Positions 12,301 to 55,400 of a stretch of 64,000 bases of DNA are shown here, piece after piece. This DNA is from Ashinkailepas kermadecensis. Lineage: Eukaryota; Arthropoda; Thecostraca; Neolepadidae. Under the pieces are notes generated by a model. It had not been told where the DNA came from and made no database searches. It saw only the letters and a program-made list of their open reading frames with translations. How positions within the stretch are numbered: position 1 is the first letter of the stretch; each line of letters opens with the position of its first letter. Position numbers and translations under genes: made by a program. The DNA lies in NCBI GenBank assembly GCA_034440615.1, contig JAOTOM010004684.1, positions 327,501 through 391,500 of the forward strand. The letters run 5' to 3'.

Positions 12301-15300
12301 TGCTTTGTAGCCAACTTTGCTAACAGATAGCATCATAAGCGGTGGTCGTGGCGTTCAGACTGGTCGGGCAGGCCGGTGTGTGTAGCGGCCAGATGTAGTC
12401 GTGTGTTCCTGTAGTCAAGCTGACCACATCGATGTTCTTCCGCCCGCAGATGATTACATGGTGGGCTACGGCTCGGCGAACGACTTGGCTTTCTTCTTCT
12501 TGAAAGACCCCGACGACCTATGGCTGTCCAACCATTTCTTCGAGAAGTGCCTCGAGTTTGGCAAGAAGATAGAAGATGATGGCAAAATGCGTGAAAGCGA
12601 GGCGCACTGCAACGTCGGCATTATGAGATTCTTTGAAGGTGAGAACTGTTTGTTTAACGGAGATCACTGTTTCTGTTGGTGACTGTTGGTGACATTGGTA
12701 CAAGCATGCAGTCAAATTGGATATTAAGCTGTACCCACCTAAATATCCAATTTGTACTCTTCTCTTTCAGGCTGCATTAGGGTGCTACCGGTTATTGATA
12801 TTGCGCCACCACACAGGTCTATATAAAACCAGGTGTGCAGCTTTTTTTCAAGGACCGCGGCCAACGTTGACGGGTCGTGTGTGCCGCCGCAGCCAACGTT
12901 GACGGGTCATGTGTGCCGCCGCAACCAACGTTGACGGGTCGTGTGTGCCGCCGCAGCCAACGTTGACGGGTCGTGTGTGCCGCCGCAGCCAACGTTGACG
13001 GGTCGTGTGTGCCACCGCAGCCAACGTTGACGGGTCGTGTGTGCCACCGCAGCCAACGTTGACGGGTCGTGTGTACCGCCGCAGCCGACGTTGACGCGGC
13101 GCTGGGGAACCTGGAGAAGTTCCGCCGACTCTCCTACAAGCAAGTGTGGGAGACCACTGACGGCTACTCCTACTACCACTACTCGTGTCTGCTGCTGCAG
13201 GACGTCTACCTCACCCAGGCTGTGGCCGCCGAGAAGGACGACCTCGAGCAGGCCTTCAAACTCTACCTGCGCGCCTCGGTCATGGCCAACCAGGGTTAGT
13301 CGGTGGTGACCGGAGCGGGTGTGCATCTTCACCAAAACCTTTGGAAGGACGATCAAGCAGTTCAGCTCTGGCCCAGAACTTCATTTGATATGCAGCACGC
13401 CCATAGACCCAATGATCAATGGAAAGAATGGTGTCCCCCAAGGAAGTCCCACACCTGGCTGGAGTGGAACTGTGGAAGGCGGGCTCACTTCGATAAACTG
13501 GAGATGGTTGTGCGTTGTCATGATGCACCTAGGTGGTGGACCCAGGCTCATAAACCTGGATTAAGTCAGAAAATAGTGTGGCGTGCTGAGTGGGCGTTGC
13601 CATCACCATGCCTTCCCACCAGCATGTGTGATGGGAGGGCAGAACTAATGGTTTGCTATAATTGTGTTGGTTTCGGTCTGAGGTAGCAAGTGGCCTGTGG
13701 CGTCCCCATAAGTGATACAGTGATACATTTGCGGCGTCGGATAAGGCGCAATTTATTTTGAATTCTTCGGACGTTTCTAAGCTCAATGTTGCCCAATTTG
13801 ATACACTTAAAACTTAAAATTCGAAGTCAAGGTGAAATCAGGGCACCATGTTCACACATAAAATATCGAATTGCCACATTTTGGCCCAAGTATCAATTTT
13901 ATTTTTGATGGGAAATGGACGCTGGGTCTGAATTCAGAGGCAACAATCCTATTATAAACACTTCTTCCATAGACGGGTCAGCTAAGGTCACATGAGGTCT
14001 TGTAAGAGTGCTCACAATGGTCCCCGTGAGCACTCGTGCCCGATATGCGTGTGACGTGAACACATTTTCCCAATGACATCGGCCGCAGTAAAGCAAGTCA
14101 AAGCATGCCAGCGCACTCCTCACATGCCAATGTTTTCATCGAACATTTTCAAATATGTCGATCTGAGCAAATGCACAGCCAGTATATGTTCTGCATCGGC
14201 CATTTTAAAAACCAAACCAGAAAAAGCAGTTGATTGCCTCTAGCTCCACGCTCACAAATCGAAACTCGGTCTGCGTCCTGGCGTCTGCTGCGCGGAGATT
14301 GTGTTGGAAGATGACAGGACTGTCTCGTTTCTTGGGAGCCGAAACAGCTAATGCGGTCTCGTACAAGCTGCTCGCTCTTGCCAGCCTCTAGTCCTGTTCC
14401 TCAGGTAGATGTTCCCGTCCCCCGAGCGACGTTATATCATCTCCACTCAACCCCCCACCACCACCCCCACAGCCCAGAACATGCAGGCGGAGGCGTTGGC
14501 CCAGTACAACCTGGGCGAGATCCAAGAGAAGATGGGCAACTGGCAGAATGCGCTTCATCGGTATGAGGCTTACCTCCGACTCTCCGACAAACTACTCAAC
14601 TTCAAAGGTGTCTGCATTGGCTGCTTCAACATCGCCAAATGCCATGAAGCGTGAGTGACTGCCGGTTCGCAGGCTGGTATCGTAGGCTGGTATCGCAGGC
14701 CGGTATCGCGGGTTGTTCGGGGGGGGGTTGGTATCGCTCAGCTGTCTGATAGGCTCCTTAATCTCATTTTTCTCATTAATATAAACTGTTGGTTGGTTAT
14801 TGGTTTTCCGACACGTCGACCGTTGAGTCATATAGAGTCGCCAATCTCTCACGCCGATTGGTCGCGGGCGAAGAGTAGCGACAGGTGAGATTCGAACCCA
14901 CAATCTTTCGATTGCGAGACGAGCATCTTGCCCCTAGACCACTCGTCCCCTTATATGAACTTTTTGTGGGTGTTCAGACTCAAGAGGCTATGCATGCTTT
15001 GACTGATTTGGTGGGTGTCCGTCCGTTGAAGGTACAATTCAGTGTATGCAGTCGTATTTGTCCTTGCGAGAGTTTGTCCACTCAGACCCATCTCTCTGCT
15101 ATATATATTGCTTTCGTGCATTTAGCGGTGAGAAGCTGAACACTTGCTGTGGACAATTCCCATTGCACCAGCGTTGAAAACGTCAAGCCATTCTGGATTT
15201 GAGTCCCGGAGAAGATGAGTGGACAGTGAACACATAAGCTCTTCTTGCACCTTGCGGCCTAGTCAGCCGAGTGACCTTGACCGGATGCCAAACGGCTCCC

Positions 15301-17024
15301 TGGTCGTGCGGGTCGTCAGACCAGTCATGTGATGGGGTGTCGGAACGCACTATCCGGCTACTCTGTTGCCCGGGAAGCGCATCAAGTGCTGCTCGGCGCT
15401 GCCGATCCCGCCTTGCATCATTGCTGCTTTGCCACGTCGAAGCGCAGATTGCGATCATGTTGGATCAGCGTTGTCGATTTCTGTATAATTGCTTCGGACG
15501 CTGGCTGGTTCGACCTGGTCTGCATGGTCCGGTACGTATCGTGGCACCGCGTGCATACATACGTGTCTCCACATTCTTCTACATATTGGTCTCAGGCGAC
15601 GAGTGGTCTAGGGGTAAGATGCTCTTCTCACAATCGAAAGGTTGTGGGTTCGAGTCTCACCTGTCGCTACTCTTCGCCCGCGACCAATCGGCGTGAGAGA
15701 TTGGCGATGCTACATGACTCAACGGTCGACGTGTCGTAAAACCAATAACCAACCAACATATTGGTCTCCTGCCTTGTCCTGCACGTGTCGTGTCACCGTG
15801 TGTATACGTACGTGTCTCTACATTCCCTACATATTGCCGCAGAATGGGGAAGCTGCCCCTGGCAGTGGATCATTTGAAGAGGAGCGAACACATTGCCAGG
15901 GGCCAGCACTTGGACGACGAGATCGTCCGGGCCAGCTCTGAGCTGGGCCATATATACCTCTCCATGGTAAGCGGAGTCATCTGTGCCGCTTCGTGGTGAG
16001 CTGAACCACTTCGATATTTGAGTGAGCAAATCTACATATCTAACTCCATGGTGAGTTAGATCGCATAAATATCTTCAGTCGGCTACATGTAGCTATCCGT
16101 ATTCATTTTGTTCACGCATGCCTATCCATGGTAAGATTGATGACATATTCCTTGTGGTAAGCAAGGTCAGATTGATCACATTCATGGTGAGTTTGGTCGC
16201 ATGCACATCTTCATGGTGGTGAGTTTGGTCGCATGCACATCTTCATGGTGGTGAGTTTGGTCGCATGCACATCTTCATGGTGGTGAGTTTGGTCGCATGC
16301 ACATCTTCATGGTGAGCTCGGCAACATGTGTTGCCCAGCTGCGCTCCTCGGGGACAGGGGAGCGTCCCCCGGGATCCTAAATCCCAAATCCTAAACAGTC
16401 ATCTAGGATTTTGTCGTCATCCAGAAAATCATACTCCGGAAAATTATCTCCTCCCCTTGAAGACTGGGTGCTACCGCTTGACAATGAACTGTGCAAGGGT
16501 GAAAACCTTCGTAAAACTCTCGGCTTACCGTTAAGCTTGCTGAGAATATGGACATTTTCCCCTGAGGTCCGGCTATTATCATTGAAGTATTGATTTGCTG
16601 CAGGAGAGCCCCGGTGTCCCACTGTCACAACCCGGTGGCACACTGTCCCAACCCCACGCTCACTACACCGTGTCAACACAGTTGGGCTTGAGGCCCCATG
16701 GGTGGTGTGACGTCACCGTTACGCCAGAGTGACGTCACGGGGGCGCTGACGGGGCCGTCGTGCCGCCGCCAGGGCAAGAACGACCTGGCGTTCCGTCAGT
16801 TCATGCAGTCGTACCACTACGTGGAGCTGTCCGAGTCGGCCGTCAACGACCACAGCTACGTGGCCAGCGCCATGGTGGGCATCTCCAGCGCCAGCCGCCT
16901 GCTGGCCGATTTCACCGATCTGGTGTTCGTGTCGCAGCGCGAGCAGATGCAGCGCGTGCTCGAGTGGAAGACGGCGCGACAGGGCATGCAGGTCCGAGAG
17001 CCGGCCGGACCCAAGTGGTACTAG
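5943..17024 (+). CDS. TTC29: Tetratricopeptide repeat protein 29 (axonemal), 9 coding exons
   Basis: Joining the nine exons listed separately gives 1878 nt, or 625 residues plus TAG, with every intron phase in agreement. Known biology: TTC29 is a TPR protein of the ciliary and sperm axoneme linked to dynein arms and flagellar transport; loss causes sperm-tail defects in mammals. Seen here: residues about 239-262 (CIDMLERGCHQAHADMY) and 330-372 (LWLSNHFFEKCLEF, EAHCNVGIMRFFE) match the conserved TTC29 amino-terminal part. Exons 6-9 encode TPR helix pairs such as ALAQYNLGEIQEKMGNWQNA and ELGHIYLSMGKNDLAFRQF. The protein is longer than the vertebrate one (about 475 residues) because exons 1-3 add an acidic, low-complexity amino end with an Ala-Asp run. 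Exons 1-3 are less certain than 4-9. An alternative start is ATG 10776 in exon 3. Confidence 0.88.
6312..6929. other. TTC29 intron 1, 5' part
   Basis: No gene or recognised repeat. AT-rich with a TTATTGTT-type simple stretch near 6737-6830. Confidence 0.5.
6930..7830 (+). mobile_element. LINE copy A, 3' end: RNase H, zinc finger and hairpin tail (broken)
   Basis: Reading frames at 6946-7185 and 7169-7477, then 7480-7745, give an RNase H domain (VYTAELVAIIMAL, LILTDSLSSLRAL, CWVPSHTVVTGNELADAAAK). A carboxy-terminal zinc-finger motif follows (CSRCGSPMAVRHILFSC). This layout is that of I-group-like non-LTR retrotransposons carrying RNase H. A frameshift near 7185 and a TGA near 7476 break the frame. 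The 3' UTR ends in the hairpin tail starting GGGCGC at 7788. Confidence 0.85.
7831..8568 (+). mobile_element. LINE copy B, 5'-truncated 3' end (RNase H tail, zinc finger, hairpin)
   Basis: Frame 7811-8356 starts inside the RNase H domain (GITGNDLADAAAKRAAG). It continues without a break through the zinc finger (CDHCDAPLTVRHALLSC) to a stop at 8354-8356. The 3' UTR ends with the GGGCGC...GCGCCC hairpin (8478-8513), an (AACC)n tail, and a second truncated tail with (AATC)n up to 8568. It lies head-to-tail directly after copy A and is diverged from it, so the two are separate insertions. Confidence 0.85.
8764..8948 (+). CDS. TTC29: TTC29 exon 2
   Basis: Residues 124-185, LADERHRQLRERLLYL and on. 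Acceptor CACCAG|C at 8763, donor GCCAG|GTCATT at 8949; enters in phase 0 and leaves in phase 2, matching exons 1 and 3. Highly charged, helix-prone. No family hallmark, so this rests on phase and coding bias. Confidence 0.55.
9192..9244 (+). mobile_element. Solo LINE 3'-end hairpin retroposon
   Basis: GGGCGC at 9192, paired GACC/GGTC inner stem, GCGCCC, then a CAACCAACCAA tail. Imperfect flanking repeat (CTCTC[G/A]CACA). No LINE coding part is attached. Confidence 0.7.
9245..9499. other. TTC29 intron 2, unassigned
   Basis: Pyrimidine-rich, with repeated 'ccagcagc/ccagctgc' words. No gene seen. Confidence 0.4.
9500..10225. mobile_element. Foldback/MITE-like element, second copy
   Basis: The ends (ATAAATTATTTGTAAAATAGG at left without its last base; TTCTAATAATTTATC at right) are inverted versions of each other and match the family at 3010-4066. 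The arms share internal phrases with it. No coding sequence. Confidence 0.6.
10226..10310. repeat. Fragment of the foldback family, left of SINE-D
   Basis: Matches element arms near 3330-3400 ('caagattgagcttgaagg'). The continuation lies at about 10550-10660, so SINE-D appears to have been inserted into it. Confidence 0.5.
10311..10550 (+). mobile_element. SINE-D (tRNA-like head, A-tail)
   Basis: Starts GGTAGCTCAGTTGGTTAGAG-like (A box), continues through a unique body and ends in an A-rich tail (10530-10550). A minus-strand relative lies at 22405-22712. Not a functional tRNA: the acceptor and anticodon arms do not fold as a complete tRNA. Confidence 0.7.
10751..10912 (+). CDS. TTC29: TTC29 exon 3
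   Basis: Residues 185-239, with MSEKQREMERTYSSKKYRMK. Acceptor GGTCCAG at 10750, donor TG|GTGAGT at 10913, phase 2 at both sides. The nearby acceptor ending at 10734 has the better pyrimidine tract but the wrong phase. ATG 10776 is a possible alternative start. Confidence 0.65.
11269..11321 (+). mobile_element. Solo LINE 3'-end hairpin retroposon
   Basis: A 53-bp insert between perfect 11-bp duplications CCGGCTGGCTT (11258-11268 and 11322-11332). It carries the GTCGATGCG half of the hairpin and an AATAACTAACT tail; the 5' arm is shortened. Confidence 0.75.
11423..11590 (+). mobile_element. SINE-B (tRNA-Leu/Ser-like head)
   Basis: The head GGTGGCCGAGTGGTTCAGGT (A box) is followed by a B-box-like GGCTGCAACACT. 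The body ends AACCACCCAATAAA. Flanked by an 18-bp duplication differing at one base (11405-11422 and 11591-11608, CGGCATCGGGTTC[G/A]TGGG), so it was inserted by retroposition. Confidence 0.8.
11609..11684 (+). repeat. Truncated SINE-B head followed by (TGTC)n microsatellite
   Basis: About 25 bp of a second SINE-B head (GGATGGCCGAGTGGTTAAGG) run straight into TG and TGTC repeats at 11630-11680. It begins exactly where the target duplication of the previous SINE-B ends. Confidence 0.65.
11853..12061 (+). CDS. TTC29: TTC29 exon 4
   Basis: Residues 239-309, with NFCIDMLERGCHQAHADMY, the first clearly TTC29-like block. Acceptor CTCCGACAG at 11852, phase 2. Donor AAAC|GTGCGC at 12062, phase 1, is weak but is the in-phase choice; the same GTGCGC donor is used by AGL exon 20. 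Confidence 0.8.
12450..12638 (+). CDS. TTC29: TTC29 exon 5
   Basis: Residues 309-372, with LWLSNHFFEKCLEFGKKI and EAHCNVGIMRFFE, strongly matching the family. Acceptor CCGCCCGCAG at 12449, donor GAAG|GTGAGA at 12639, phase 1 at both ends. Confidence 0.9.
12856..13084 (+). repeat. 32-bp minisatellite carrying the TTC29 exon 6 acceptor
   Basis: Seven intronic 32-bp units run directly into exon 6. The shared CGTTGACG word recurs at 12865, 12897, 12929, 12961, 12993, 13025 and 13057, then at 13089 inside the exon. Most units read CCGCAG|CCAACGTTGACG, the same as the true acceptor and first exon bases. The unit at 12929 has AG changed to AA. Confidence 0.92.
13085..13294 (+). CDS. TTC29: TTC29 exon 6
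   Basis: Residues 372-442, with LEKFRRLSYKQVW and LEQAFKLYLRASVMANQ (TPR-type helices). Acceptor GCCGCAG at 13084, donor CAGG|GTTAGT at 13295, phase 1 at both ends. Its first bases are the last copy of the minisatellite. Confidence 0.9.
13295..14472. other. TTC29 intron 6
   Basis: About 1.2 kb without a recognised gene or element. Moderately AT-rich. The several open frames here are not supported by any family signal. Confidence 0.5.
14473..14650 (+). CDS. TTC29: TTC29 exon 7
   Basis: Residues 442-501, containing a full TPR unit (ALAQYNLGEIQEKMGNWQNA). Acceptor CCCCCACAG at 14472 (phase 1), donor AAGC|GTGAGT at 14651 (phase 2). Confidence 0.92.
14789..14950 (-). mobile_element. SINE-A, minus orientation
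   Basis: Reverse complement of the family consensus: starts at the 3' tail (TTGGTTGGTTATTGG) and ends at the GGGGACGAG head. The internal core around 'agagattggcgac' is present. Imperfect flanking duplication. Confidence 0.85.
15594..15755 (+). mobile_element. SINE-A, plus orientation
   Basis: tRNA-like head (GACGAGTGGTCTAGGGGTAA, B box GGGTTCGAGTC), then a core with CGACCAATCGGCGTGAGAG and an AACCAACCAA tail. Perfect 13-bp target duplication ACATATTGGTCTC at 15581-15593 and 15756-15768. Confidence 0.92.
15843..15966 (+). CDS. TTC29: TTC29 exon 8
   Basis: Residues 501-542, MGKLPLAVDHLKRSEHIARG and ELGHIYLSM (TPR). Acceptor TTGCCGCAG at 15842 (phase 2), donor TCCATG|GTAAGC at 15967 (phase 0). 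The donor text recurs in the intron downstream. Confidence 0.92.
16045..16316 (+). repeat. Donor-like minisatellite in TTC29 intron 8
   Basis: Degenerate units containing CATGGTGAGT or CATGGTAAG, at about 16049, 16126 and 16182, then four nearly identical units of about 32 bp (TTCATGGTGGTGAGTTTGG...). Each resembles the exon 8 donor TCCATG|GTAAGC. Confidence 0.8.
16317..16772. other. TTC29 intron 8, 3' part
   Basis: No gene. Short duplicated phrases occur ('ggatcctaaatcccaaatcctaa', 'cccactgtcacaacccgg'). Confidence 0.4.
16773..17024 (+). CDS. TTC29: TTC29 exon 9 (stop codon)
   Basis: Residues 543-625, GKNDLAFRQFMQSYHYVELS to the end (GPKWY, TAG at 17022). Acceptor GCCGCCAG at 16772, phase 0. 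The last TPR helices are followed by a helical, basic tail. Confidence 0.93.
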   Translation, partial: GKNDLAFRQFMQSYHYVELSESAVNDHSYVASAMVGISSASRLLADFTDLVFVSQREQMQRVLEWKTARQGMQVREPAGPKWY

Positions 17025-17947: not shown

Positions 17948-18107
17948 GGGACGAGTGGTCTAGGGGTAAGATGCTCGTCTCACAATCGAAAGGTTGTAGG
18001 TTCGAGTCTCACCTGTCGCTACTCTTCGCCCGCGACCAATCGGCGTGGGAGATTGGCGACGCTACATGACAACGGTCGACGTGTCGTAAAATCGATAACC
18101 AACCAAC
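17948..18107 (+). mobile_element. SINE-A, plus orientation
   Basis: Complete head, core and AACCAACC tail, between perfect 15-bp duplications CGAAGGTAGTAGCTG (17933-17947 and 18108-18122). The word 'actcaacgg' is shortened by two bases compared with other copies. Confidence 0.92.
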
Positions 18108-18122
18108 CGAAGGTAGTAGCTG

Positions 18123-20640: not shown

Positions 20641-22140
20641 TAGTTCTTGAAATTTATCACTTGAATGCAATGTTTACAAATGTGACTAAGGTGATGGGAC
20701 CACTCATTGTCTTTGTAAATGCTTACTTTTCAGGTTGTGAGCAAAATAATGCAAAGAAAGGCTTTGTGTTAGGTAGCATAGCATAAAAAGAAATGTTCAA
20801 AAAAAATAAAGTAAAAATGCAACATAACCTAGCCTAACCTCTCTCTAGAGACTTTTTAACTATGCAATTTTTCAGCAATTTTTTTCCTGAAAATGTTAGA
20901 AATTAACAAAAAATTAATCCAACCTAACCTAACTTAATATCAGCTGCTTTTGAAGAAAAACAATTTCCCAATACAAAATTGGCACTGTATAACCAATGCT
21001 CCCTAAAACCCAAATAACAACCAACCCAATAAAAAAAAAAATTGTTTGGAAAAAAATTGAACAATTTTCCAACAAAAAACCTAAACTAACCTAACCTAAC
21101 CTAACCAAATCTAACCCATTTTTTGCTTTATGGGGCAAATGTGTGTAAAAACTTGTCTTGTTACCAACTTAAAAAGCATAATAATACTAAAATATGATGG
21201 ATGTTTGTGGTAGAACATACTGGTAAATTTGTCCTTGATGGCAATTTTTGAATTCCTGGCATTTCCTTTCCAAATGCAATATTCATGAATGTAGTTAACA
21301 TGAGTGATTTCCTCTCTAAATGTTTACTTTTACTTAGTTGAAAGCCAAAATATCACTGAAAATGTGGCTTGTCTTGGGGCAAATCTGCAGTTGAAGGTAA
21401 TTTTAACTCCTGGAATTTCTTTTTACAGTGTAATTTTTATGAATGTGCTTAAGATGATGCAGCCACTCATTTCCTTGGCAAATGCATACTTTCCAGTTGG
21501 AAGTCAAAATATCACCCAGAAAGGGGCTTGGAGTTGGGTAAAATAGCATGACAATTAATGTTCAATACAAATAAAAATATGTTTACTTAGTTGAAAGCCA
21601 AAATATCACTGAAAATGTGGCTTGTCTTGGGGCAAATCTGCAGTTGAAGGTAATTTTAACTCCTGGAATTTCTTTTTACAGTGTAATTTTTTTGAATGTG
21701 CTTAAGATGATGCAGCCACTCATTTCCTTGGCAAATGCATACTTTCCAGTTGGAAGTCAAAATATCACCCAGAAAGGGGCTTGGAGTTGGGTAAAATAGC
21801 ATGACAATTAATGTTCAATACAAATAAAAATATGGCACAACCTAACCTAAGATAGCCTAATCTTCCATGCAAAACACAAATTCGTCTTTTTATGGAAAAT
21901 TTTCAAGTTATAAACCTAACATAGCCTAGCCTGGTATGTTTTTGACGAAAAATAAGTGTAATTAGACAAGTTTCCCTTCCCCCCCCCACAAAAAAAAATG
22001 TTTCCAACCTAAAACAAAAGTCTAACCTAACCAAGTCAAACCATAGCACAAAAAGTAAAGCAAGCAAAACCAAAGCATAAAAAGTAACATTGGAGAAATG
22101 TGACATAACATAACCTAACCTAACATAGCCTAACCACCCA
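20641..22140 (+). repeat. Degenerate AT-rich tandem repeat with CCTAA motifs
   Basis: Related units share 'ccactcattgtctttgtaaatgc'-type text and a CCTAACCTAA-rich end (20825, 20928, 21083, 21839, 22110). Two units, about 21330-21580 and 21583-21835, are almost identical and form a tandem duplication of about 253 bp. An inverted relative is at 1-345. Confidence 0.7.
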
Positions 22141-23235: not shown

Positions 23236-23379
23236 CACTCATGTGTTTTGCTCGCCACCAGGATCCGGCTCTCGAGGTCACGTGCATTGGCCATGCACAA
23301 ACGTGTCACCTTTTCATGTACTCGCTTACGCTTTGTGCATTTAAATCTAACAGGATAATCATTTAAATGGTACCAGTGT

Positions 23380-23546
<167 letters not shown>

Positions 23547-27789: not shown

Positions 27790-28704
27790 GAGCTGAAGCC
27801 GTGTGTGTTTGGGCTCGGGGACGGTGTTTCAGTGTGGTGGGGCGAGTCTCAGCGGCGGGTGTGTTTCAGGCGTGTCGGGCCATGAAGAACCAGTCGGCCG
27901 CAGCCATGAAGCCGTGTGTGTTTGGGCTCGGGGACGGTGTTTCAGTGTGGTGGGGCGAGTCTCAGCGGCGGGTGTGTTTCAGGCGTGTCGGGCCATGAAG
28001 AACCAGTCGGCCGCAGCCATGGAGCCGTGTGTGTTTGGGCTCGGGGACGGTGTTTCAGTGTGGTGGGGCGAGTCTCAGCGGCGGGTGTGTTTCAGGCGTG
28101 TCGGGCCATGAAGAACCAGTCGGCCGCAGCCATGGAGCCGTGTGTGTTTGGGCTCGGGGACGGTGTTTCAGTGTGGTGGGGCGAGTCTCAGCGGCGGGTG
28201 TGTTTCAGGCGTGTCGGGCCATGAAGAACCAGTCGGCCGCAGCCATGAAGCCGTGTGTGTTTGGGCTCGGGGACGGTGTTTCAGTGTGGTGGGGCGAGTC
28301 TCAGCGGCGGGTGTGTTTCAGGCGTGTCGGGCCATGAAGAACCAGTCGGCCGCAGCCATGAAGCCGTGTGTGTTTGGGCTCGGGGACGGTGTTTCAGTGT
28401 GGTGGGGCGAGTCTCAGCGGCGGGTGTGTTTCAGGCGTGTCGGGCCATGAAGAACCAGTCGGCCGCAGCCATGGAGCCGTGTGTGTTTGGGCTCGGGGAC
28501 GGTGTTTCAGTGTGGTGGGGCGAGTCTCAGCGGCGGGTGTGTTTCAGGCGTGTCGGGCCATGAAGAACCAGTCGGCCGCAGCCATGAAGCCGTGTGTGTT
28601 TGGGCTCGGGGACGGTGTTTCAGTGTGGTGGGGCGAGTCTCAGCGGCGGGTGTGTTTCAGGCGTGTCGGGCCATGAAGAACCAGTCGGCCGCAGTCATGG
28701 AGCC
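27790..28704 (+). repeat. 113-bp tandem array, eight near-identical copies
   Basis: Equivalent points recur every 113 bp (27803, 27916, 28029, 28142, 28255, 28368, 28481, 28594). Copies differ mainly at one A/G position (ATG[A/G]AGCC). Each unit holds an acceptor-like TGTTTCAG, a 44-nt exon-like segment and a GT. The period is not a multiple of three, so the 102-residue frames are overlapping artefacts. Confidence 0.95.
28661..28704 (+). other. Candidate small exon at the end of the 113-bp array
   Basis: In the last copy, TGTGTTTCAG|GCGTGTCGGG opens and GGAGCC|GTGAGT closes a 44-nt segment with ATG at 28673 (MKNQSAAVME). The donor is strong only in this copy; the other copies read GTGTGT. 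It ends in phase 2, which would fit AGL exon 2 as an alternative first exon. This is speculative. Confidence 0.25.
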
Positions 28705-30085
28705 GTGAGTGCCACCTGTGGCCGAACAATGGCCCGGGGCATGGCCGAGCCGGCTTTCTGCCGGCTTTCTGCCAGCTTCTAACGCCGATATCGCTTCTAA
28801 CAGTGTTGTGCATTGCATGCGCCGATTATGGGGTTGCGTGGTGCGATGCGATGCAGTGAGGCGCTTTGCTCTGGTGCTACTAATGACGAATGGAAGCTGT
28901 TGATAAGCTTGTTGAGTGCTCAGTATGGTCCTCTACGTTGCTTTCGGCGATTAGGAGGGCAGTGGTGTATTCTGTCTCCGGTGGCCTTGGGTGCGAAATG
29001 TGCAGAGGGAACTGAATGTGCGGGACGCATTTGGCAACACCTCCCAGTCCGAGGAGATGCAACCTAATGGGTGTCGCTTTTGATCCTCCTAGCGATGGCT
29101 CTTCCTGGTCATAAAATGCTTCCTCTACGTTATCACACACTAGTCTGCTTGATCCAAATAGTAAGTATCATGTCTCATACCCTCCTGCAATGCAATAGGG
29201 TGTAAGCGACGCATATTTACGATTTCCAATATACTTAACAATATCTTAAGTAAACCTAATACGTCTATGAACTTAGTTAGGATGTTCCTAGATGAATGTA
29301 CCGTTCATGAAAAAAATGAACATGTTTTTGTCCGGTTGACTGGTGGCGTGTTTTTAAAGTTTTGGTATATAATTTACGTGTGTTGCTTGTATGGCGTTTC
29401 AAGTGTATGACGCTTGTATAATGCTGGTTCGGAAGGTTTTAATGCTTCGGTCTTGTGTGTGTAATGAGGTGAAGCGAGTGTTCGGAAGGTGTCCTCTTTC
29501 CCAAGATGGCCTTTGTCATCTAGAGAATTAGTGAATGTTCGAGTACTAAGTATAATTCTTGTCGAGCAGGACTATCTTAGTGGGAATATTTTTATTGTTT
29601 TTCTTTGCTGATTTCAAGAAAGCATTTAAAAGGTAAGTATTTGTACAAAGAAGAACCTTTCATTTACACAGGCGTACCTTTCTTGTTGCCAGTTGGAGCT
29701 GGAATCCATCTTCGTTATGACACTGCAGCGTTCAGCGTATTCTTGTATAACAGAAGTGTACCCACCCACAAGCAGAGATCACGCCGTCACTGGCGATCGC
29801 CCCCGGCGGAAACCGGCACCGGCGCGTGGGGTCATCCAATCCAATTATTGACTCGAACGCGTGCATGCGTGCGTTTCAAAGTTTCACCCGTTCCCAGTGT
29901 ACGCCATACAGCAACGGTTGTGACCGTGCTGACTAGGCTTCGGTCACTCCATGGAGAGTGGTGCAACACTGGAATCGCATCAGGGTGTACCCGCATCCAT
30001 TGCATACCTTGGAGTCCAATTAAATACGATTTAAGTCGTTCCTTCCACACAACTATGCAGGGCTAATGCTAAGATCATCTTAAGC
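28705..30085. other. Intergenic, nothing recognised
   Basis: No gene or repeat supported. AT-rich after 29100. Confidence 0.4.
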
Positions 30086-34000: not shown

Positions 34001-34359
34001 GGGAGCTGCCTGGCATCGCTGTCGGCCCCATTTGCCGACCCGTACCGCTGCTGTTGGCCGTGCGTTACCGGAGGCCGGCGGCGCCGCCTCACGGGTCCGC
34101 CCAGCTGCGACTGCAGGAGGAGGTTGGCTGGCTCACGGTCGCGGCCCGTCCGGCCGGTGATAGACGTACGCGCCGCGTTGAGAGGCGTCCGTCGTGTGAA
34201 CGTTGGCGCCCTGGCCGCGGCTGCCGTCCGTCGTCCCGGTCAGCCGCCAGCCGCCAGCCGCCAGCCGCCCGCCAGCCGCCCGCCAGCCAGTTGCAGTGCA
34301 GTGGAGGGCGAGCGGCGGGCGGAAGCGGGCCACGCTCGCGGGCCCTGCGCGCTGCCGAG

Positions 34360-34448
34360 ATGGGCACCGTCGTGGAGCGCGTCGACGAGGTGTTTGAGGT
34401 GTTGCTGCTGCCGCCGCACAAGAGGCCCAAGCACAGGGATCGGTTCAA
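34360..34448 (+). CDS. AGL: AGL exon 1 (start codon)
   Basis: Residues 1-30, [23 protein letters not shown] 34360 lies in a GC-rich block; donor TTCAA|GTGAGT at 34449, phase 2, matching exon 2. The amino end is not conserved, so the start is an inference. ATG 40637 in exon 2 is an alternative. Confidence 0.6.
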
Positions 34449-40400: not shown

Positions 40401-43400
40401 TGTCACGCGCTCGCGCCCAGCGTGCGGCGGCCAGCGCAAATATGGGCCCGTGTGTCGAGTACCGGCGGGCGGCGAGTGTGCGCGGGTCTGCGTCACATCG
40501 AGTCGCGCCGCTGGCCGTTCTTGGCCAGGCTCGCCGGCCTTGCCTGCACAGTGTACACTGACGCAACGCTGCTCCGCGTTCCAGACCTTTGGACCGTTTC
40601 AAATTCGCGTGCAGTTACCCACCACTGTATCCCGGAATGACGCCCGCTGCCGCCGACGACCCCGAAGTGCGAGTGATTCGACTGCACGACAACGACCACA
40701 AGGAATCGACGCTCTATCGGCTGCAGAAAGGTCCGGTCGGCAGCGTGACGGTCGCGTATGAATGGGCGAGATGTGTATGGGAGGAATACCGTTGACTTGT
40801 TTACATTGGGAATGCGTGTCTTGCACGCTGTCGCTGCGACATTTATCGTTGTCGTCGCTTCTGCACAGTCATGTTGAGAAATATGTAGGTGTATTATTTG
40901 TGTGTATGCACACAATACATGCAATATTGGTCTGTATTGTGTGTATTAGTACTAATTTCAATACCGGCAGTGAGTAATATGGACCTACGTACAATGCAAT
41001 GCAGCGCGGCAAGTTCCACTTCCCCTTTTCTTGCTTTAACCATGTCAGCCGAACATCCGATTACTCATAATATATGTATCATTATGCCATTCAATTCCAT
41101 TTCATATGAATCCTATTGATATCGATGGATCGTATATGGTAGAGTCGTATGATCCTATTATTCTATCGGTAAATCACAGATAAGATCAACTGTCACAAAT
41201 CAGATCTGTGATGGGAAATTTTGTATCGTTATGCAAGTTGCGAATGTTAATGTTATTTTTCGGTCCTTATAGTGTAATCTTGGCTGTTGGCGATTAACCT
41301 TTTTTTTCATCGCTAATGGTTTGCATGAGCCGGCACTGTCCTGCATTTTTGTCGTCGTACAAGGTCATGAGTTCTTTTCTACTTGCAATCCAGAATTGTG
41401 GACTCAAATGCATCTACAACCATTAATTTTTCATACACAATTTTGGGGGGGGAGAAAAAATATAGTTTGTAAAAAAAGCTGGATTTTTGCCGGGCTCATG
41501 TTCTAAGCGAGGTTTAAGAATCCAATCAGAGTATAATGTTTACCACATATGTACAGCTAGCGTCACGCTGGCGTAATGCCACCCACGCGCCGCTGGGGCT
41601 ATGCCAGCCTGACATGCCGCAAAGTGTAACGTGCATCCCCCTCCCTGTCGGCAGGCTGTGTGCTCCACTTCCGTCTGGGACCGTCCCTGTTCGGTCGAAT
41701 TGTCTCCGTGTTCAGCAACCACCCTCTGTCGGCCGACGAGGATTTCTGCCGCGATAAGTACCACAAGCTGCCCTGGAAGTCTGACAGCAAGATCGTCGAC
41801 GACACGAGTATCTACGTCGATGTGCCGATCGTGCGCGCTGGCTCCTTCCGCTACTACTTCACGCACACGGAAGGGTAGGTGTTTTGCTGCGCACTGTTTT
41901 TCTGCACGGTGTTTGTTTGGGTGTGTGCGACTGGCTGTGTGTCGTTGTGTGATGGCGTCTCTGGCGGGCTGGCTTCCGCGGGGAGTGGCGACCGGTGCGC
42001 GTGTGTGCACAGATCGGACCCGAACCCGCGCGGCTCCGGCTACTTCGTGGTGGATCCGTGCCTGTCGCGAGGCACCAACAATGAGATGCTCGGCATGGAC
42101 TGCATCGTCAGTCAGACGATGCTCTCCAAGTGTTTGGGCCCTCTCGACCAGTGGGAGGGCAGGCTGGAAACCGCACGACAGACCGGCTACAACATGATCC
42201 ATTTCACGCCTGTACAGGTGAGATGACGCTGGTGCGCCGTGTTCTTTGTCCGTGTTGATCTTGATGTTACTTACTGGTGGGCGGTGGCAGCCATGTAACT
42301 AAGATGCAATGTCAACTGGATAAGTAGTGTAATGCAATGCAATGTGTCGTAGAGATTGCTTCCGGTTGATTTTTTTATAGGACGGTCATTGCTGCCCAAT
42401 GATGCAACTTGACCTTGACCTGTGCTGCGAAACAAGGATTTCTAATGTAGCCCAACTACATGAATCACTCTTGTTTCAACGGACACAACTAGGTGAAGTG
42501 ACCGAATCAAGTGGAGTCCATGGATGGTTGCTACCTCGCGCGCTGATAATGTGCTTATGCAGAAAGCCTGTGTGCGAGCGCCGTATCTCCTGGCTGATTG
42601 AGCTTTCGAACGGGCCGACTCGAATGAGTCCGTGAAGCGCTGACTGCGTGTGCGCAGGAGCTGGGCAACTCCGGCTCGGCGTACTCGCTCGCCAACCAGC
42701 TGCGACTGAACCCGGCCTTCCAGAACTCGGACGGCTCGCCGGCCAGCATCGAGGACCTGGCCAAGCTCGTGAAGAAAATGCGTGACGAGTGGCAGGTGAG
42801 CCTGTTGACGGACTGATGAGTGCTGCCCTGGTGGCGCCTACCGAGGGTGGTGCTATTTTTGGTTTGGTTTTGGGACTGCTTTGAAACAGATCTATGTTTA
42901 AGAGAATGCCCATGTCTTTATGTTGCCTCAGCACCATTTGATTGATGTTAACCCTCGTCGGTTCATTTCCAACTGGTCTCCCGGTTGAAAATTAGATTGT
43001 TCCAGTTGGGGGTGACACAGTTGGTGGTGCTTCCATCACTCATTAATTTGTAAACTGTGTGGAACGAAATAAACTAGTGAGTCGTATCGTTCCAGTTTTT
43101 GCAGAGTAGGCTCCGCTACCAGACATCATTGCACTGTGGTGCTGAAATACTGGTTGTCATTGAGGTGTACTATGTCGAAAAGAGAACAGGGTATCGAAAT
43201 TTGTCATGAAAATGGTGTCATGTCAAATGTCTGCCCTGCGCAGACTCCAACAGCCGGTTACATGGACAGTGGCCGACGGCGCCCGTCCTTCCCGGCAGGT
43301 GCTGAGCGTATGCGACATCGTCATGGTTACATGGACAGTGGCCGACGGCGCCCGTCCTTCCCGGCAGGTGCTGAGCGTATGCGACATCGTCATGGTTACA

Positions 43401-46400
43401 TGGACAGTGGCCGACGGCGCCCGTCCTCGCCGGCAGGTGCTGAGCGTATGCGACATCGTCATGGTTACATGGACAGTGGCCGACGGCGCCCGTCCTTCCC
43501 GGCAGGTGCTGAGCGTATGCGACATCGTCATGTTATGGAGACTGCCTCCCGGCAGGTGCTGAGTATGTTTGTTACATGGACAGTGGCCGACGGTGCCCGT
43601 CCTTCCCGGCAGGTGCTGAGCGTATGCCACATCGTCATGGTTACATGGACAGTGGCCGACGGCGCCCGTCCTTGCCGGCAGGTGCTGAGCGTATGCGACA
43701 TTGTCATGAACCACTCGTCCAACGATTCGCTCTGGCTGCGGGAGCACCCCGAGTGCGGCTACAACTTGATCAACTCGGGCCACCTGCGGCCGGCCTACCT
43801 GCTCGACCGCGTCATAGAGCGGCTCTCCAAGGACATGCTGCTCGGACGGTGGCGCGACCGCAACCTGCCCGAGGACGTCACTGAGGAGACTCACCTGGCG
43901 GTTAGTGTGACGGTGGCCTTTCGGGCGACATCGGAGATTACCTGGTGGTTGGTGTACTGGTGGCCTTTCCAACGGCACTGGAGATATAACTGGAGATATA
44001 CCTGACGGTTGGTGTAGTGGCGATTTTTGCAACGACACGGGGCATTTATCTGGCGGCTGATTTGGTGATGGCCTTTCCAATGACACTGGGAGATTTACCT
44101 GGCAGTTGGTGTGGTGGCCACTGCCACCACAAATTCGCGTGTGGTGGCACAATGTCCAAATTCGCGTTTTAAGTGCCGAGGCCAGGATGCAAAAACAATT
44201 TCAAATTCATATAGTATCCAAGTCCTGATGAATATTAGTCATCAAAATCGAAAGTTGGGCCTATTTCGTGGTCAGCAATTGGTTGAATGTCTTTCCACTT
44301 ACATTGCCTATCACAAACTCTCCAGGGATACATTATTTTATTTACATCACGACGCCTAACTGAGCGAACTTGGACACCATGTGTGGTGGTGACCTTCCCA
44401 ACTGCACTGTAGATGTACCTGATGGCTGGTGTGGTGGTGACCTTTCCAACTACACTGGAGGACCTCCAGTGTAGTTGGAAAGGTACACCTCCAGTGGAGG
44501 TGTACCTGACGGCTGGTGTAGTGGTAACCTTCCCACCTACACTGGAGATGTACCAGACGGCTGGTGTGGTGGTGACCTTTCCAACTACACTGGAGATCTG
44601 GTGTTGTGGCGACTTTTCCAACGTCACTAGAAGCGTATCTAATCTGACACAGACTGCAGCGCAACGCGCGGAAGCCGTCCTTGCATAATATCTGTGACAG
44701 GGGCTGTTTAATTCAAGTGCATTGCGATATGCGATCGTGGTTCTGGAAGGGATGATATAATGATTCTCTTTTGGACGTTACGCTAAAGCTCATGCCGTCC
44801 AGGAGCTGTACGCCCCAGTTTGGAAAGGTGAATCTCTTACTGCTGAGTCGGCTGTGTGCTTGGCGGATGGCGTGCATTTTACGGAGCAGTGCATGTAGTA
44901 AATGTTATCAGAAGGTGAAAATACATATGCCCTGCCCTGAGGTTTCCTGGTCTGCTGATCCATGCGCGAATGGTGGCACATTAACGTTTGTCGGTCCTGT
45001 CGTGATCTGTGTCTTCTGCTGGACCTCTCGGGCGTCACCAATGCTGAGGTCGACAGACCCGTTTGCCCAATGTGACTGGAACGGTCCGTCAACACTCCCC
45101 TTCAAATCGTATGCTCCGCTATGTACCATTTTGCTAAGTGATCAGCACCTTCCCCGTGGATTCGTAGTTCCCAGTAGTAGGGTAGTTGTAGACGCCAAAA
45201 AAAGCTACCTGACTAACTGATCTGTGGTTTCTGACCGGTCTCCTCCCGGGGAGCATTCTGCTCTGTATGACATGCCTCCTGCCCCCAGGTGATCCGGGAA
45301 CTGCTGCACAACGAGTACCTGCCGGCCGTGCGCCTGCACGAGTTCTACCAGTGCAGCCCGGCCACGCTGGCGGACGCGCTGGGTGCGCTTTGCGCGTCCG
45401 ACGACGGCGGCGGCGGCGGCGGCTGCGGAGCCGAATGGGCCGAGCAGCGCGCGGATCCGTCTCAGCTGCGGCTGCTGCCAGATCCGTACGGCGTGCGGTT
45501 CGGCCGCCGGATCGACCTGCACCTGGCCAAACGCATCTTCTGCCCCGGCAGGTCGGTGCCGGCCCGCCCACACCGGCCACCCGGGATGGCCGGGCCAGGC
45601 GGGACCGTTGGCGAAGGGGACGCCTGACCAGATGTGTGACACAGAGTTGGGCTCCGTGCTGTAGTCGTGGTTCCCGATGCTCGTGGCCCTGACCGGTGAG
45701 CGATTGATGAGTATATGTGCCGTATGGCTCGGTTTGGGGACGCTTGAGCCCCAGTGGTCAATCGATGCCTCGTCGGGGATTGGTGCTGTGGTGCAAAGGA
45801 AAAACAGTCGCACGTGATTATTTCCGGCGAACGACGTTTTTTTATGCATTCGACAGGTCTTTCACATTTTTTAGACGTGTATGTTGGTGAAAGGTATACT
45901 CAGATTTGGCATATAAGAAACACGATGTTTTATTTGGAGGAAAACGTTTTTTTTCTTTCTTTTTAAAAATGTTCATCAGAAGGCAATGGTAGAAAGACAT
46001 ATGTTACAAATCGGCCCGGCTGGATTGACGTACGTCGAAAGATTGTTCCCCGGGGACGAGCAGTCTAGCGGTAGCTCAGTTGGTAGAGCGTCGGACTCTT
46101 GATCGCAAGATTGTGGGTTCGAATCTCACAATCGACGGCATTTACCGAGTCCACCCTCGACCAATCGGCGCGAGAGGCTGGCGACGCTATATGACCTAGC
46201 GGTTGAACGCGTCGTAAAATAACCCAAGGTTCTTCTTCTTTCTTGAGTAAAGGCTGGTAGGATTGTTGCGAAGTGGGAAGTGTCTTCACTTGTACAACGA
46301 AGCATTTTCGACAAGACCCGGCCGTGTTCAACTCTGCACGGGATCAGACTTCGCGATACGACTGGGGATGGTGTGTTGCTGTTACTCATTCTGCTCTGAT

Positions 46401-49400
46401 AATACTATTTTTCCACCAGCCGTAACATGGAGAGCGCCAAGGACGGCCTGCGCGGGCGGCTGCTGGAACTGAACGAACATGCGGTGGCCGTGGTGCAGGG
46501 ACATCTGTCGGCCGCCGTGGAAAACATAATCTCTGGCATCCGCTACGAAAGGCTGGCCGACCACGGACCGAAAATGCGAGGCATCACCTACCGCACCCCG
46601 CTTGTCGCCCCGTAAGGCCCGCGTCGGTTGTTCGTCAGTCTTGATGACGTGTTTTCTAAGTCATAGACAAACAATCGCATCCGGCCGGTCATGCAAGATC
46701 GCGGTAGCATCACTGCCAAGTAATACGAAGCCGTGTGAGACGAGTTGACGGGAAAATGTCGACTGGCTGCCGTTGCGCCTTGAAGTGGGACTGTGCCGCC
46801 GTAGCCTGTTCAGCCTGTGCCGCACATCCGCCGGGACCGGCCAACTGACCATGAGCGCATGTCGACAGCTACTTCACTACACTGGACGGCGCCGCCAGTC
46901 TGGACAGCGACCGCAGCATGGAGCAGGAGGAGGCCGTCATGTTCGGCCCCGACGCGCGCCACCTGATGGCGCACAACGGCTGGGTGATGGGCGACGACCC
47001 GCTGCGCGACTTCGCCCGGCCCGGCTCGGATGTCTACCTGCGCCGCGAGCTGGTCGCCTGGGGCGACTGCATCAAACTGCGGTACGCGCTGACACCCGCT
47101 CACGCTGCCCGGAGATGGACGGCTTTTCGCACCACTGTGGCGCCGGTGGCTGGATTCTGTCCCACGTGTGATTGCCGTCGTGTTGCGGTGGTAATGTTCG
47201 GTTATGTGGACTTGCGGTTATCATGGCGTTCGTTTGTGTCGTTCCTGGCTCCCGGCGATGATAGTGTATGGCTGTTCCACATGTTTGTGACTACTGGACA
47301 AGTGGCATGATGTGGCAGGTGAAGTGAGTGCGAGGTGGGTAGTCTGGTTGCTCCAACTTGGCAATGGTGGTGGGTTTGAGCGAGAGTTAAATGTTGTCGG
47401 GTAGTGGTTGGTTGGTTATTGGTTTTACGACACGTCGACCGTTGAGTCATATAGCGTCGCCAATCTCTCGCCGATTGGTCGCGGGCGAAGAGTAGCGACA
47501 GGTGAGATTCGAACCCACAATCTTTCGATTGTGAGACGAGCATCTAACCCTAGACCACTGTCCCTTTGTCGGGTGGTGGGACTTCCTCCGTGACCAATTT
47601 GACATGTCCTCGTATGGGCGACATATTGTGCGTGGAGACCCAACTGGGTATGTTGTGCGGCGTGATGCTGAGCCATTACGGAACTTGAACCGTGTTTGCT
47701 ATGTATGAAGAGGTAATGATGCTGTGTCCCGTTGTGTGTGCACATCATGTCACCTGTCCAGTTATGTTACCTGTGGTAGGTACGGTGGCCGCCCGGCCTG
47801 TTTTCGTAGCACGTGACAAGCCATGGCGCGTGAAATAGGGCCCGTGAATCGGACCTGTGTCGAGACAGGTACGGTGACCGGCCGGACGACTGCCCGTACC
47901 TGTGGCCCATGACCGTGACCTGTGTCGAGACAGGTACGGTGACCGGCCGGACGACTGCCCGTACCTGTGGCCCTTGACCGTGACCTGTGTCGAGACAGGT
48001 ACGGTGACCGGCCGGACGACTGCCCGTACCTGTGGCCCTTGACCGTGACCTGTGTCGAGACAGGTACGGTGACCGGCCGGACGACTGCCCGTACCTGTGG
48101 CCCATGACCGTGACCTGTGTCGAGACAGGTACGGTGACCGGCCGGACGACTGCCCGTACCTGTGGCCCTTGACCGTGACCTGTGTCGAGACAGGTACGGT
48201 GACCGGCCGGACGACTGCCCGTACCTGTGGCCCTTGACCGTGACCTGTGTCGAGACAGGTACGGTGACCGGCCGGACGACTGCCCGTACCTGTGGCAACA
48301 CATGCGGCGCTACGCCGAGCAGATGGCGCGCGTGTTCCACGGAATTCGTCTGGATAACTGCCACTCCACACCTATCAACGTAGCCGAGGTTCGTGACGGT
48401 AAAGACGGATAGGCAGGCACAGATCTGGTGTGGTGTCCCCTCCTCACGAGGAAGAGGCACATATGATAACTACTCTGAATTTGAGTGTCCTTACATTACT
48501 GTGGGAATTGAAAACGCACGATTCCCTTCATCATCTGTGTTGTTCTTTCATATTTGCAGCATAAGCCGTGTACTTCACATCGGCTATATTCTATGAACTG
48601 CAATTGGAGACAATAAATGAATGCATTAAGCATGGTCCGCTTATGTATAGTTCAGAATAGTTTGATATGTATTTTGGAGACATGCTTGAGTGAAGGAGTA
48701 GGGGTGAACTGTAAGACTATCCAACACTGAGCGGTTGCTCATCGGCAGTACATGCTGGACGCGGCGCGTAAAATTCGACCTGACCTTTACGTCATCGCCG
48801 AACTGTTCACCAACAACGAAAAGATGGACAACATCTTCGTCAACCGGCTGGGAATCAACTCCTTGATCAGAGGTGGGAGACAGTCGTGGTATGGAAGGAG
48901 CCTTCATTCTCTGACCTGAGGGATCTGGCTGGCTGCAGTTCCGTGGCGTTTGCTTTTATTGTGAGTGAGTCAGTACTGGGCATTTATTTTTCGTCTTTGC
49001 TTCATGTTAGCACTTCATCAGTTTGTCAGTGCGCGTGCAATGCAAAATCAGCTAATGGTCATGCAAGGTCTCTGGGACGGATGTGAAGCTCCTTGCAATG
49101 TGAACCTCCAACCCGGTCGGTATTCCTGCCAGACCCCATAATGTTACATGATGTGGCGTGGCCGACCTTTTCAACAACCGGCGCTCAGCTATCTCCGTGC
49201 TGCCCGGCCTCCCTCTAGCTCTGTGGCCAGCTTCCTCTCAGACGTCTCTGGCCTGGATGCCTCTCAACACTGTGCTGCCCCTCCCCTCTGACGGGGCTGG
49301 GATGGCCGAGCGGTTAAGGTCTGGGTACCAACGGTCCCGGGTTCAACACTCGAACCACTCGGGACATTTCCCAATCTCGCGGCGCACCGGTGAAACAGTG

Positions 49401-52400: not shown

Positions 52401-55400
52401 CGGTGCAGCCCCCAATGAGGTCCCTGGTGATTCGGTTTCGTTGTTGGGTAACAGCTCACAGATAATATGACATAAATCGCAGTACCAATGCGTCCTCTAC
52501 GAAAACAGCTTGAGGGATCGGCGGTGAAATGTGTGATGGGTTGGCAGTACGTCATACCTGCCGTCCAAGGATTGTACGTGCTTGCTAATGGTGCCGCTAG
52601 ACCGATGCCTCTGCGCGGCACCATGCTGTTTCCACTGACACTGAGCGCCTCTGCGCGGCACCATGTTGTTTCCCTTGACACTTATTAAGTCTAAACGCTT
52701 TGTAACTTTATATAGGGCGTACCTAGCAGTGGATTCAGCACCTTCCTTCGGGTTGTGATACTGATGAGATTGTCTATGGTAGCACAATGGGTATGATGGG
52801 AGGAGTTTGTAATTGTTGAGTGTGTTATGCAATAGGAAGTGAGTCTCTTATTACGTCTAAACGCTTTATAACTTTATATAGGGTGTACCTAGCAGTGGAT
52901 TCAGCACCTTCTGGATGTGATACTGATGAGATTGTCTTTGGTAGCACAATGGGAGTGTGTTATGCAATTGCAAATGAATTGGTGCTAGATAGGCTGCGAT
53001 ATATAGCTTCCTAGGAACTTGAGGTAAGGGATTGATTGGGGTGAGAGTATGTACATTTCTAGTACCTTTTCCAGATGGGCTTAACCCAGATGGGCCCCTG
53101 TGCCTCTTATTAAGCCTTAACACTTTATGACTTTATGACACTGAACGCCTCTGCGCAGCACCACGCTGTTTCCTCTGACACTGAACGCATCTGCGCAACA
53201 CCACGCTATCGCCTCTGACACTGACCGCCTCCGCGCAGGATCGCGCCGTGCCCGCTCGCCGTGGGCGCGGTGCAGAAGCTGCGCGAGATCGTGACGGACC
53301 TGACGCAGTTCAAAGCCAGCACGGACGTGGAGCACATCATTAGCCGGCTGTCGTTGGCCGACATGAACCGCGTCATCTACCGGTGCGACCAGGAGGAGCG
53401 CGACGAGGGCCGCGGATGGGCCGCCTACGACCTGCCCAACTTCGGCCCGCTCGTCTACGCCGGCTTCCAGAGTGAGTTGACAAAATGGTTTGCATTGTAG
53501 CGAGCCATTTTGCCCATTGCGAACACCCGATTCAGACACTTTGCACTGACACTGAAGTAATATTGTGAAGAGTTCCGTGCGTATTTTTTTGGTTCAAGGA
53601 ATATTTTGGGTCAAGTAGGGCAGCAAAAGCTTCCCACATGGTTTCGGTGCAACCGTATCTCAGAACAACCCTAACCTCTGGCAGTGTGTTGTATTCGCTT
53701 GGGTTGCGCTCTCACCGTTAGTAGTTCTTCTCATCATGTGAGCGCACCGCTTACGTGGCGTGGCGTCGAGTAACCGATGACAGCGCGTCATACGTATGCT
53801 CCCAACCCACACAGTCACGCCTCGACATGTGTCAGCATGCCGGCCATGTGCCCACCAGGCATCATGTCTCTCATGGCCGACATCCGGGTGAAGAACGACT
53901 TGGGCCACCCGCTGTGTGAGAACCTGCGCCAGGGCGACTGGCTGATGGACTACGTGGCCGGCCGGCTCAAGCTGGAGCCGACCACACAGGAGCTGGCCGC
54001 CTGGCTGCAGGTATGGGTTGTCGGCCTGTACGTCTGGCTGTTTGACTGGTAACGCAACCGGTTGTATGTCTTCCTAGCTGTCTGGCTGTTGAATGTCACC
54101 TGTCAGGCACACACAGTCAGGTTGTGATCCATTTGCATTGACTGCATACGTTTCACTTGCTTGGTTTGTATTTCCACTTGTGATTGTACCCTGACTCCAG
54201 GTGTGTGGCCTGTCGACGTCCCTATGATGTATCTCCGTGGTGTAAGTTTGATGGTGGCTGTGTGAGACACCACGCATATCATCCGGCGAGGATTCAGTGG
54301 GGGGGGGGTGCCGTGTGACTTCGGACAAGTACACATTCTGCCAGTATGGGTTTGAAGCTTCACATATGAAGGTTTGTTGTGGTTAGCAGTAGTAACTGGG
54401 CATAGTTCGCCTGCATTGAACATATTTAGTGGATTATTCCGATGTTTGTGCTATGTATTTTATTCTACGATCAGATTTGCGATAAGTCATGAGCATGAGC
54501 CTAAAGCGACCACAGCATGTATTTTATAAGAAGGTCGTTATTAGAGCGAGAGGTGACAGCTGATGTTCTTGTCTCAATCATGCTTCGCCCCGTTTGCAGG
54601 AGACGTTTGACCACGTCAGGAAGGTGCCTCGGTACCTGGTGCCGGCCTACTTTGACGCCGTCTTGCTCGGCGTCTATGTGCACCTGCTGAATGCCACCTG
54701 GCGGCAGATGGCCAGGTAACAACGGTTATTGTTTTTACGACACGTCGACCGTTGAGTCATGTAGCGTCGCCAATCTCACGCCGATTGGTCGCTGGCGAAG
54801 AGTAGCGACAGGTGAGACTCGAATCCACAATATTTCGATTGTGAGGCGCCCGCCTCACAATCGAACTTACCCCTAGACTACTCGTCCCCACCAGGTAACA
54901 ACGGATGCCCGCCAATGTCGCAGCCACGTCCGCCGCCGGAATGCTTGTAATAAGCTTAAGCGTATGTTAGACATTTCTCTACTGCACTGTGGATTCAGCT
55001 CGCCTCGTGTGCGGTGCAATGTGGCAGGTTATTGTTTGCATAGAGGGCGCTATGTGAGCTCTGTAGTCGAAGCGCCCCTAAACCCCAATAACTATCTAAC
55101 TTGTTTGCATAGCGATGAGAGAGAGAGAGGTTCATCTGGAATGTTCATACTACAGAGCCAAAACTTGTGTGTTGTTTTTAAATTGCGTTTGCGGTGTCTA
55201 AAACGGGACTTCTCCAACATGCTGGCGGTGATGCGTGCACAGTTTATGTGTACCAGAATGGGTCGGAAGCTGCAGGTTAACTGTTCTGCCTGCGGTGCCC
55301 AACTCTCGGTCTTGCGACCAGATGGGCGCGGGGTGGGGCCCAGATGAGGTGCCGTACTCGCCGCCGTGTCAGACTGTCGGTGCCGCGGTCAGGTTCGTGC

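Follow-up and report, generated by a model that had tools for sequence, protein, structure and literature searches.

We discuss here minisatellites whose tandemly repeated unit contains a splice junction, in a stretch of 64,000 nucleotides from the crustacean Ashinkailepas kermadecensis (GenBank assembly GCA_034440615.1, contig JAOTOM010004684.1, positions 327,501 to 391,500). This whole stretch, which we call the window, is C4187:327501-391500 in the assembly that we searched (907.7 Mb, 4689 contigs); positions without a contig name are those of the window, and all features given by such positions are read on its forward strand. It carries two genes for which the best protein matches are from barnacles. 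For AGL (glycogen debranching enzyme) these are Pollicipes pollicipes at 64% and Amphibalanus amphitrite at 63%, both figures being for the best local alignment, which covers about half of the query, and for TTC29 they are the same two species at 78% and 77%.

Arrays at splice junctions of AGL and TTC29

Gene models were made with tblastn and a spliced-alignment script against the barnacle AGL and TTC29 proteins. The AGL model has 26 aligned exons (40589-61822) and the TTC29 model 8 (about 8764-17018), giving together 32 introns and 64 junctions. Arrays were detected with Tandem Repeats Finder (TRF) and overlaid on the model junctions; minisatellites make up 9.0% of the intron bases of the two genes. 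The original prediction, made from the sequence alone, was that six splice sites in these genes lie in arrays, and its exon numbers are one higher than ours.

Four of the six are confirmed as arrays that span a junction, three at acceptors and one at a donor. In TTC29 the acceptor at 13085 of exon 5 (13085-13294; exon 6 of the prediction) lies within an array at 12855-13096, with a 32-bp unit in 7.6 copies that takes in 12 exonic bases. In the case of AGL exon 5 (43682-43900; also predicted as exon 6) there are arrays at both ends. The acceptor at 43682 lies within 43256-43708, which consists of an intron-side part (43256-43532, 69 bp x 4.0), a 38-bp stretch (43533-43570) that by eye resembles a unit with an internal deletion, and an exon-side part (43571-43708, 69 bp x 2.0) that spans the acceptor and includes 27 exonic bases. 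The donor at 43900 lies within 43885-44116, reported by TRF as two rows (43885-43993 and 43992-44116) of diverged 47-48-bp copies that include 16 exonic bases, and a related unit forms a further array deeper in the same intron (44381-44597, 48 bp x 4.7). The acceptor at 48259 of AGL exon 9 (48259-48388; predicted as exon 10) lies within 47852-48296, where a 65-bp unit is present in 6.8 copies at 99% match, with 38 exonic bases included and seven acceptor copies that are all identical.

In all four cases the 12-38 exonic bases belong to the copy at the exon, and the remaining copies are on the intron side. Across each of the four junctions the joined translation can be followed position by position in the Amphibalanus protein, and we therefore take the exon-proximal copy of the splice site as the ancestral boundary.

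The other two predicted cases fared less well. The array before AGL exon 15 (predicted as exon 16) is at 53136-53238 (40 bp x 2.6, with a related array at 52607-52682); it ends on the final intron base and its copies share the acceptor end, so that it abuts the acceptor at 53239, but the match continuing into the exon is only about 60% by eye and it is unclear that the array spans the junction. The predicted donor array of TTC29 exon 8 has to be dropped, as it is at 16185-16314 (32 bp x 4.1), beginning 219 bp downstream of the true donor at 15966, and contains a donor-like motif only.

The 69-bp unit at AGL exon 5 is a multiple of three and one frame is open through the array into the exon (open reading frame 43073-44002), so use of an upstream acceptor could add in-frame repeats of 23 residues.

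There is a second assembled copy of AGL on contig C4368 (49010-54110), identical to the window over 55760-56040. Both acceptor arrays are found there too, in unchanged phase but with lower copy numbers: 2.0 units at exon 5, against 4.0 plus a shortened one plus 2.0 in the window, and five acceptor copies at 65-bp spacing at exon 9, against seven identical ones, the two nearest the exon being identical and the others altered. Exon 5 differs from that in the window at 10 of 219 bases, with seven amino-acid changes, and exon 9 at 1 of 130, while a search of the assembly for TTC29 found it only on C4187 and not on C4368. The C4368 gene could be a structurally different allele or else a recently duplicated gene under weaker constraint, and in either case the comparison tells us that the arrays change length and occur beyond one contig.

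Junction arrays in a genome sample and the choice of null

The prediction also held that six cases are too many for chance. We extended the count to a sample of genes, with exons located by Pfam searches of the assembly for the myosin head, kinesin and TCP-1 families. The 90 best-scoring loci, most of them with 1.5 kb of flank at either end, make up 69 segments (267 kb) after merging. We used 163 of 255 family matches (all 78 for myosin, 42 of 125 for kinesin and 43 of 52 for TCP-1); matches outside the sampled loci were omitted by eye, and 122 of those used fell inside. Exons lacking a family match were scored as intron, which may push enrichment in either direction. To call splice sites we used matrices trained on the 32 introns of the window, and a minisatellite was defined as an array of period at least 10 and score at least 80. 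Likely second copies, on contigs C325, C3901, C1063 and C3297, were removed for deduplicated counts. Some overlaps are doubtful, with a weak site or with extra copies lacking AG or GT (those on C4679, C4646, C3901 and C4287, one donor on C4527, and one acceptor each on C3687 and C3588). We therefore also used strict sets, one from an automatic filter that required AG or GT to be kept in a neighbouring copy (12 arrays in the sample), the other picked by hand (13 arrays).

Minisatellites cover 17.4% of the non-exonic positions in the sample, and 21 of the 203 called junctions (10.3%) are inside arrays. Donor and acceptor junctions are affected alike (10 of 101 and 11 of 102 respectively). For sample and window together, 22 of 120 arrays (16 in the strict set) span one of 250 junctions.

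One explanation is chance, introns being so rich in minisatellites that some arrays must cover junctions, and if expectation is set by base coverage the counts seem to favour it. The 10.3% of sample junctions in arrays, set against 17.4% of nearby positions, is then a depletion to 0.59x (bootstrap interval 0.34-0.88), and the window has 4 of 64 junctions in arrays with 5.6 expected. The depletion is similar without the likely second copies and at site scores of at least 6; at scores of at least 8 it is not significant (0.82 for all, 0.75 deduplicated). However we judge this null to be the wrong one, as it counts an array once per copy, and yet an array derives from one ancestral unit. A junction is a single ancestral site, and a 30-copy array would be weighted thirtyfold against it, so we prefer a null in which every array is collapsed to one unit and the units are re-placed at random.

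At the unit level the sample has 20 overlaps with 4.1 expected (12 and 2.7 for the deduplicated sample at site score 6 or more), and the window has 4 with 1.3 expected (permutation P 0.03). For sample and window together there are 22 with 5.1 expected, an excess of 4.3x (interval 2.9-6.2). Part of this is due to base composition. Away from exons the density of arrays rises from 0.05/kb below 35% GC (1 array in 18.7 kb) to 1.06/kb at 60-66% GC (19 in 17.8 kb), and is 0.53/kb above that, and 163 of the 250 junctions are in the two top GC classes. Placing units with weights for GC, with the rate for the top class raised to that of the highest class, which favours the null, brings the expectation to 8.7 and the excess to 2.5x (1.7-3.6). 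The corresponding figures are 16 and 7.0 at site score 6 or more (2.3x, 1.5-3.3), and 16 for the automatically filtered strict set against the unfiltered expectation of 8.7 (1.8x, 1.1-2.6), while simple GC binning predicts 5.9 of the 22 (3.8x).

There is thus a real but modest excess at junctions, on top of a heavy minisatellite load, and chance alone is very unlikely to account for the junction arrays. The claim that the cases are too many for chance holds for sample plus window at the unit level (1.8x to 3.8x after allowing for GC). It does not hold by base coverage, nor for the window alone, which is unconvincing, as its four cases compare with 5.6 expected by coverage, 1.3 for random units and 2.2 for GC-weighted units, the last difference not being significant.

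Assembly error, in the arrays or in their overlap with junctions, was a further concern, as tandem arrays are hard to assemble and some loci are present in at least two near-identical copies. However both AGL acceptor arrays recur in phase on C4368 with different numbers of copies, and the hand-picked strict arrays are on 10 of the 37 sampled gene contigs, so we regard an artefact as the least credible of the explanations and extremely improbable.

The similar loci form three sets (C4390/C325, C4646/C3901 and C3297/C1063/C3760), about 86-98% identical in their main aligned pieces, and may represent haplotypes kept in the assembly or recent duplications. A two-copy 73-bp duplication over a putative acceptor is present in C3297 and in one C1063 locus; in the other C1063 locus it was not called as an array, a diverged partial copy being present, and C3760 is without it. 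These may be alleles or paralogues. A comparison of C4646 with C1409, as presence and absence of a 41-copy donor array, was rejected because the exons encode different TCP-1 family proteins.

Origin of the arrays and choice of splice site

The excess could reflect a mutational process at exon ends or junctions, such as breakage at the exon-intron step or R-loops linked to transcription, that raises the frequency of tandem duplication there. The unit-level excess, 4.3x against uniform placement and still 2.5x with GC weighting, is in keeping with this, as is an effective unit rate of about 2.9/kb at junctions compared with 0.27-0.60/kb beyond 200 bp. Junction arrays are also like other arrays in copy number (6.8 and 6.0) and identity (88% and 89%), so that longer survival at junctions is not an obvious cause. 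Their units are longer (median 57 bp, against 31 bp in other arrays), but this is accounted for in the null by placing each array separately. However GC removes much of the excess, the strict set retaining only 1.8x, and the mechanism is purely hypothetical. Further, arrays 15-150 bp from exons and off junctions number 31 with 21.0 expected from GC (1.5x), indicating that GC accounts for most of the exon-proximal gradient. For units that do not overlap a junction the rate of unit centres is 0.21/kb within 20 bp of the exon (a single array), 1.60 at 20-50 bp, 0.49 at 50-100 bp, 0.73 at 100-200 bp and 0.27-0.40 from 200 to 1000 bp, and is back up to 0.60 at 1000-1500 bp; with only one array in the first interval and a rise in the last, the profile is noisy. 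A hump in coverage on the acceptor side at -300 to -100 is not significant (ratio 1.31, interval 0.87-1.97). We consider such a process rather unlikely. In its boldest form exon ends would be birth hotspots, a junction-linked process seeding minisatellites at 2-4 times the GC expectation, with about 1 in 11 to 1 in 16 junctions lying among up to about 26 decoys that are ignored by position alone, and introns growing outward from exon edges; we put this forward tentatively, as possible but doubtful.

The extra copies of the splice site bear on how such arrays can be tolerated. We scored these decoys in 25 junction arrays, 4 in the window and 21 in the sample (including two pairs from likely second copies, and several doubtful ones). 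Of 169 recognisable extra copies, AG or GT is intact in 119, and 81 have a score equal to or above that of the site in use. In the clearest arrays nearly all decoys match the real site: at donors, GT is retained in 25 of 26 decoys on C4659 (39 bp x 27.6) and in 18 of 18 on C3687 (68 bp x 19), and at AGL exon 9 all six decoys match the real acceptor. With decoys nearly identical to the real site, sequence strength can hardly select the one used, and the rule predicted for choice of site is likely to be position relative to the exon. Under exon definition the nearest acceptor and donor are paired across the exon.

Selection might instead favour repeated splice sites, by making splicing more robust or by giving useful in-frame variants. 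The 69-bp unit of AGL exon 5 is in frame, with the frame open through part of the array, and unit length is a multiple of three in 7 of 13 strict junction arrays compared with 37 of 99 others. That difference is small and not clear, units of 32 and 65 bp would cause a frameshift, the decoys range from intact to decayed and the assembled AGL copies differ in copy number, and we find this explanation highly unlikely.

The explanation that we favour, and think probable on the sequence data, is that these are GC-rich minisatellites derived from tandem duplication of exon edges, tolerated because splicing is predicted to use the exon-proximal copy only. An ordinary tandem duplication would take in the GC-rich edge of an exon with its junction, and under exon definition the acceptor and donor closest to the exon would be paired across it while all further copies would stay intronic. 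A duplication that includes the junction would for this reason be near neutral, and unequal exchange or slippage could then alter copy number. Several causes are likely to combine in the excess that remains after GC: a mild preference for CAG-type motifs, less loss by deletion of arrays next to exons, and perhaps more frequent birth of arrays at exon ends. In units away from junctions, compared with GC-matched controls (n=87, strands pooled), ACAG is found in 48 with 29.0 expected, CACAG in 23 with 10.9 and CAGGTG in 12 with 4.8, and GGTGAG is not enriched (4 with 3.3).

Several points weigh against this explanation. The excess left by GC (1.8x to 3.8x) is itself unexplained, and as base coverage reverses its sign (0.59x) its size rests on the null chosen. 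The signal for CAG-type motifs is weak, as the k-mers were picked post hoc from many. The sample is of three gene families with splice sites called rather than annotated, some of the calls being doubtful, and use of the exon-proximal copy is read from protein homology.

Nevertheless a heavy load of GC-loving minisatellites together with tolerance explains most of the junction arrays, and a junction-linked process, although it may contribute, is not required. The original prediction named two alternatives, a process linked to splice junctions and strong tolerance at them. Tolerance is supported, by the proportion of arrays that span junctions (22, or 16 strict, of 120), by the retention of AG or GT in 119 of 169 extra copies and by the presence of only 3 mainly exonic arrays in 34.9 kb of exon. 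The junction-tied process is left where it was, with an excess of 1.8x to 3.8x after GC and 0.59x by base coverage.

Some other observations were made in passing. A myosin-head exon (profile about 376-436) is present in three consecutive copies at each of C4393:524473-529328 and C4673:1282476-1287020; these resemble the mutually exclusive exon sets of muscle myosin. Between the two genes of the window there is a 113-bp x 8.1 array at 99% match (27794-28711), with no coding link by eye, and a 253-bp tandem duplication (2.0 copies, 99% match) is at 21329-21834. AGL intron 4 contains a short repeat of dispersed type (about 43139-43229), with matches at 76-79% identity in at least about 40 other places, and open frames at 7163-8353 and 33374-34456 resemble, by eye, pieces of retroelement RNase H and zinc knuckle.

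Comparison with amphioxus mirages and other systems

The closest known system is that of the amphioxus "mirages", described in the parts of PMC3087553 consulted as minisatellite-like duplications of intron/exon boundaries in globin genes and Adh3, with units of 10-72 bp cited there for Adh3. Haplotypes differ in them, splicing is apparently undisturbed, somatic instability is reported at the Adh mirages, and mirages have been put forward as a possible origin of new introns. A second paper, PMC3902484, in the portion consulted, adds PGBD5 and cites TnC as mirage genes, splicing again being reported as undisturbed. In amphioxus as here the unit spans the splice junction and part of the exon, donor and acceptor sides both occur, many copies keep AG or GT, and unit lengths overlap (32-69 bp in the window). 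Copy number, which in amphioxus differs from one haplotype to another, differs here between the two assembled copies of AGL, which may be alleles or duplicates. The differences are that ours are in another phylum, in genes that match barnacle proteins, and have been counted over 250 junctions against chance including GC, and that normal splicing has been shown from RNA in amphioxus whereas the exon-proximal boundary here is taken from protein homology only. By the features tested, the arrays fit amphioxus mirages, in another lineage.

Intron creation by internal tandem duplication (Rogers; Gao and Lynch 2009, both as cited in the part of PMC3087553 consulted) is similar in that the duplicated sequence includes splice signals. 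However the arrays here lengthen introns and do not split exons, and in the array list for the 32 window introns there is none in which donor and acceptor share one array. With ordinary intronic minisatellites they share copy number, identity and a GC-rich setting, and differ in that the unit is longer and contains an authentic splice site together with some coding sequence. Also possibly related are the internal tandem repeats that alter gene structure in human genes (PMC2812944). We found no report of splice-junction minisatellites outside amphioxus by title or opening of the abstract, in a literature largely without subscription journals, and the sections consulted of a barnacle genome paper (PMC8416341) do not mention junction arrays.

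For tandem arrays a null based on coverage and one based on events give opposite verdicts, which is a trap for genome-wide tests of enrichment, including that proposed with the original prediction. If there were a junction-linked birth process it would provide a route for lengthening of introns. One would normally expect a duplicated splice site to disrupt its gene. Here such duplications recur in conserved genes, and the junction arrays thus offer a natural experiment on spliceosomal choice among identical sites distinguished by position alone. The presence of amphioxus-type mirages in a crustacean suggests that a high minisatellite load, and not cephalochordate biology, may underlie them.

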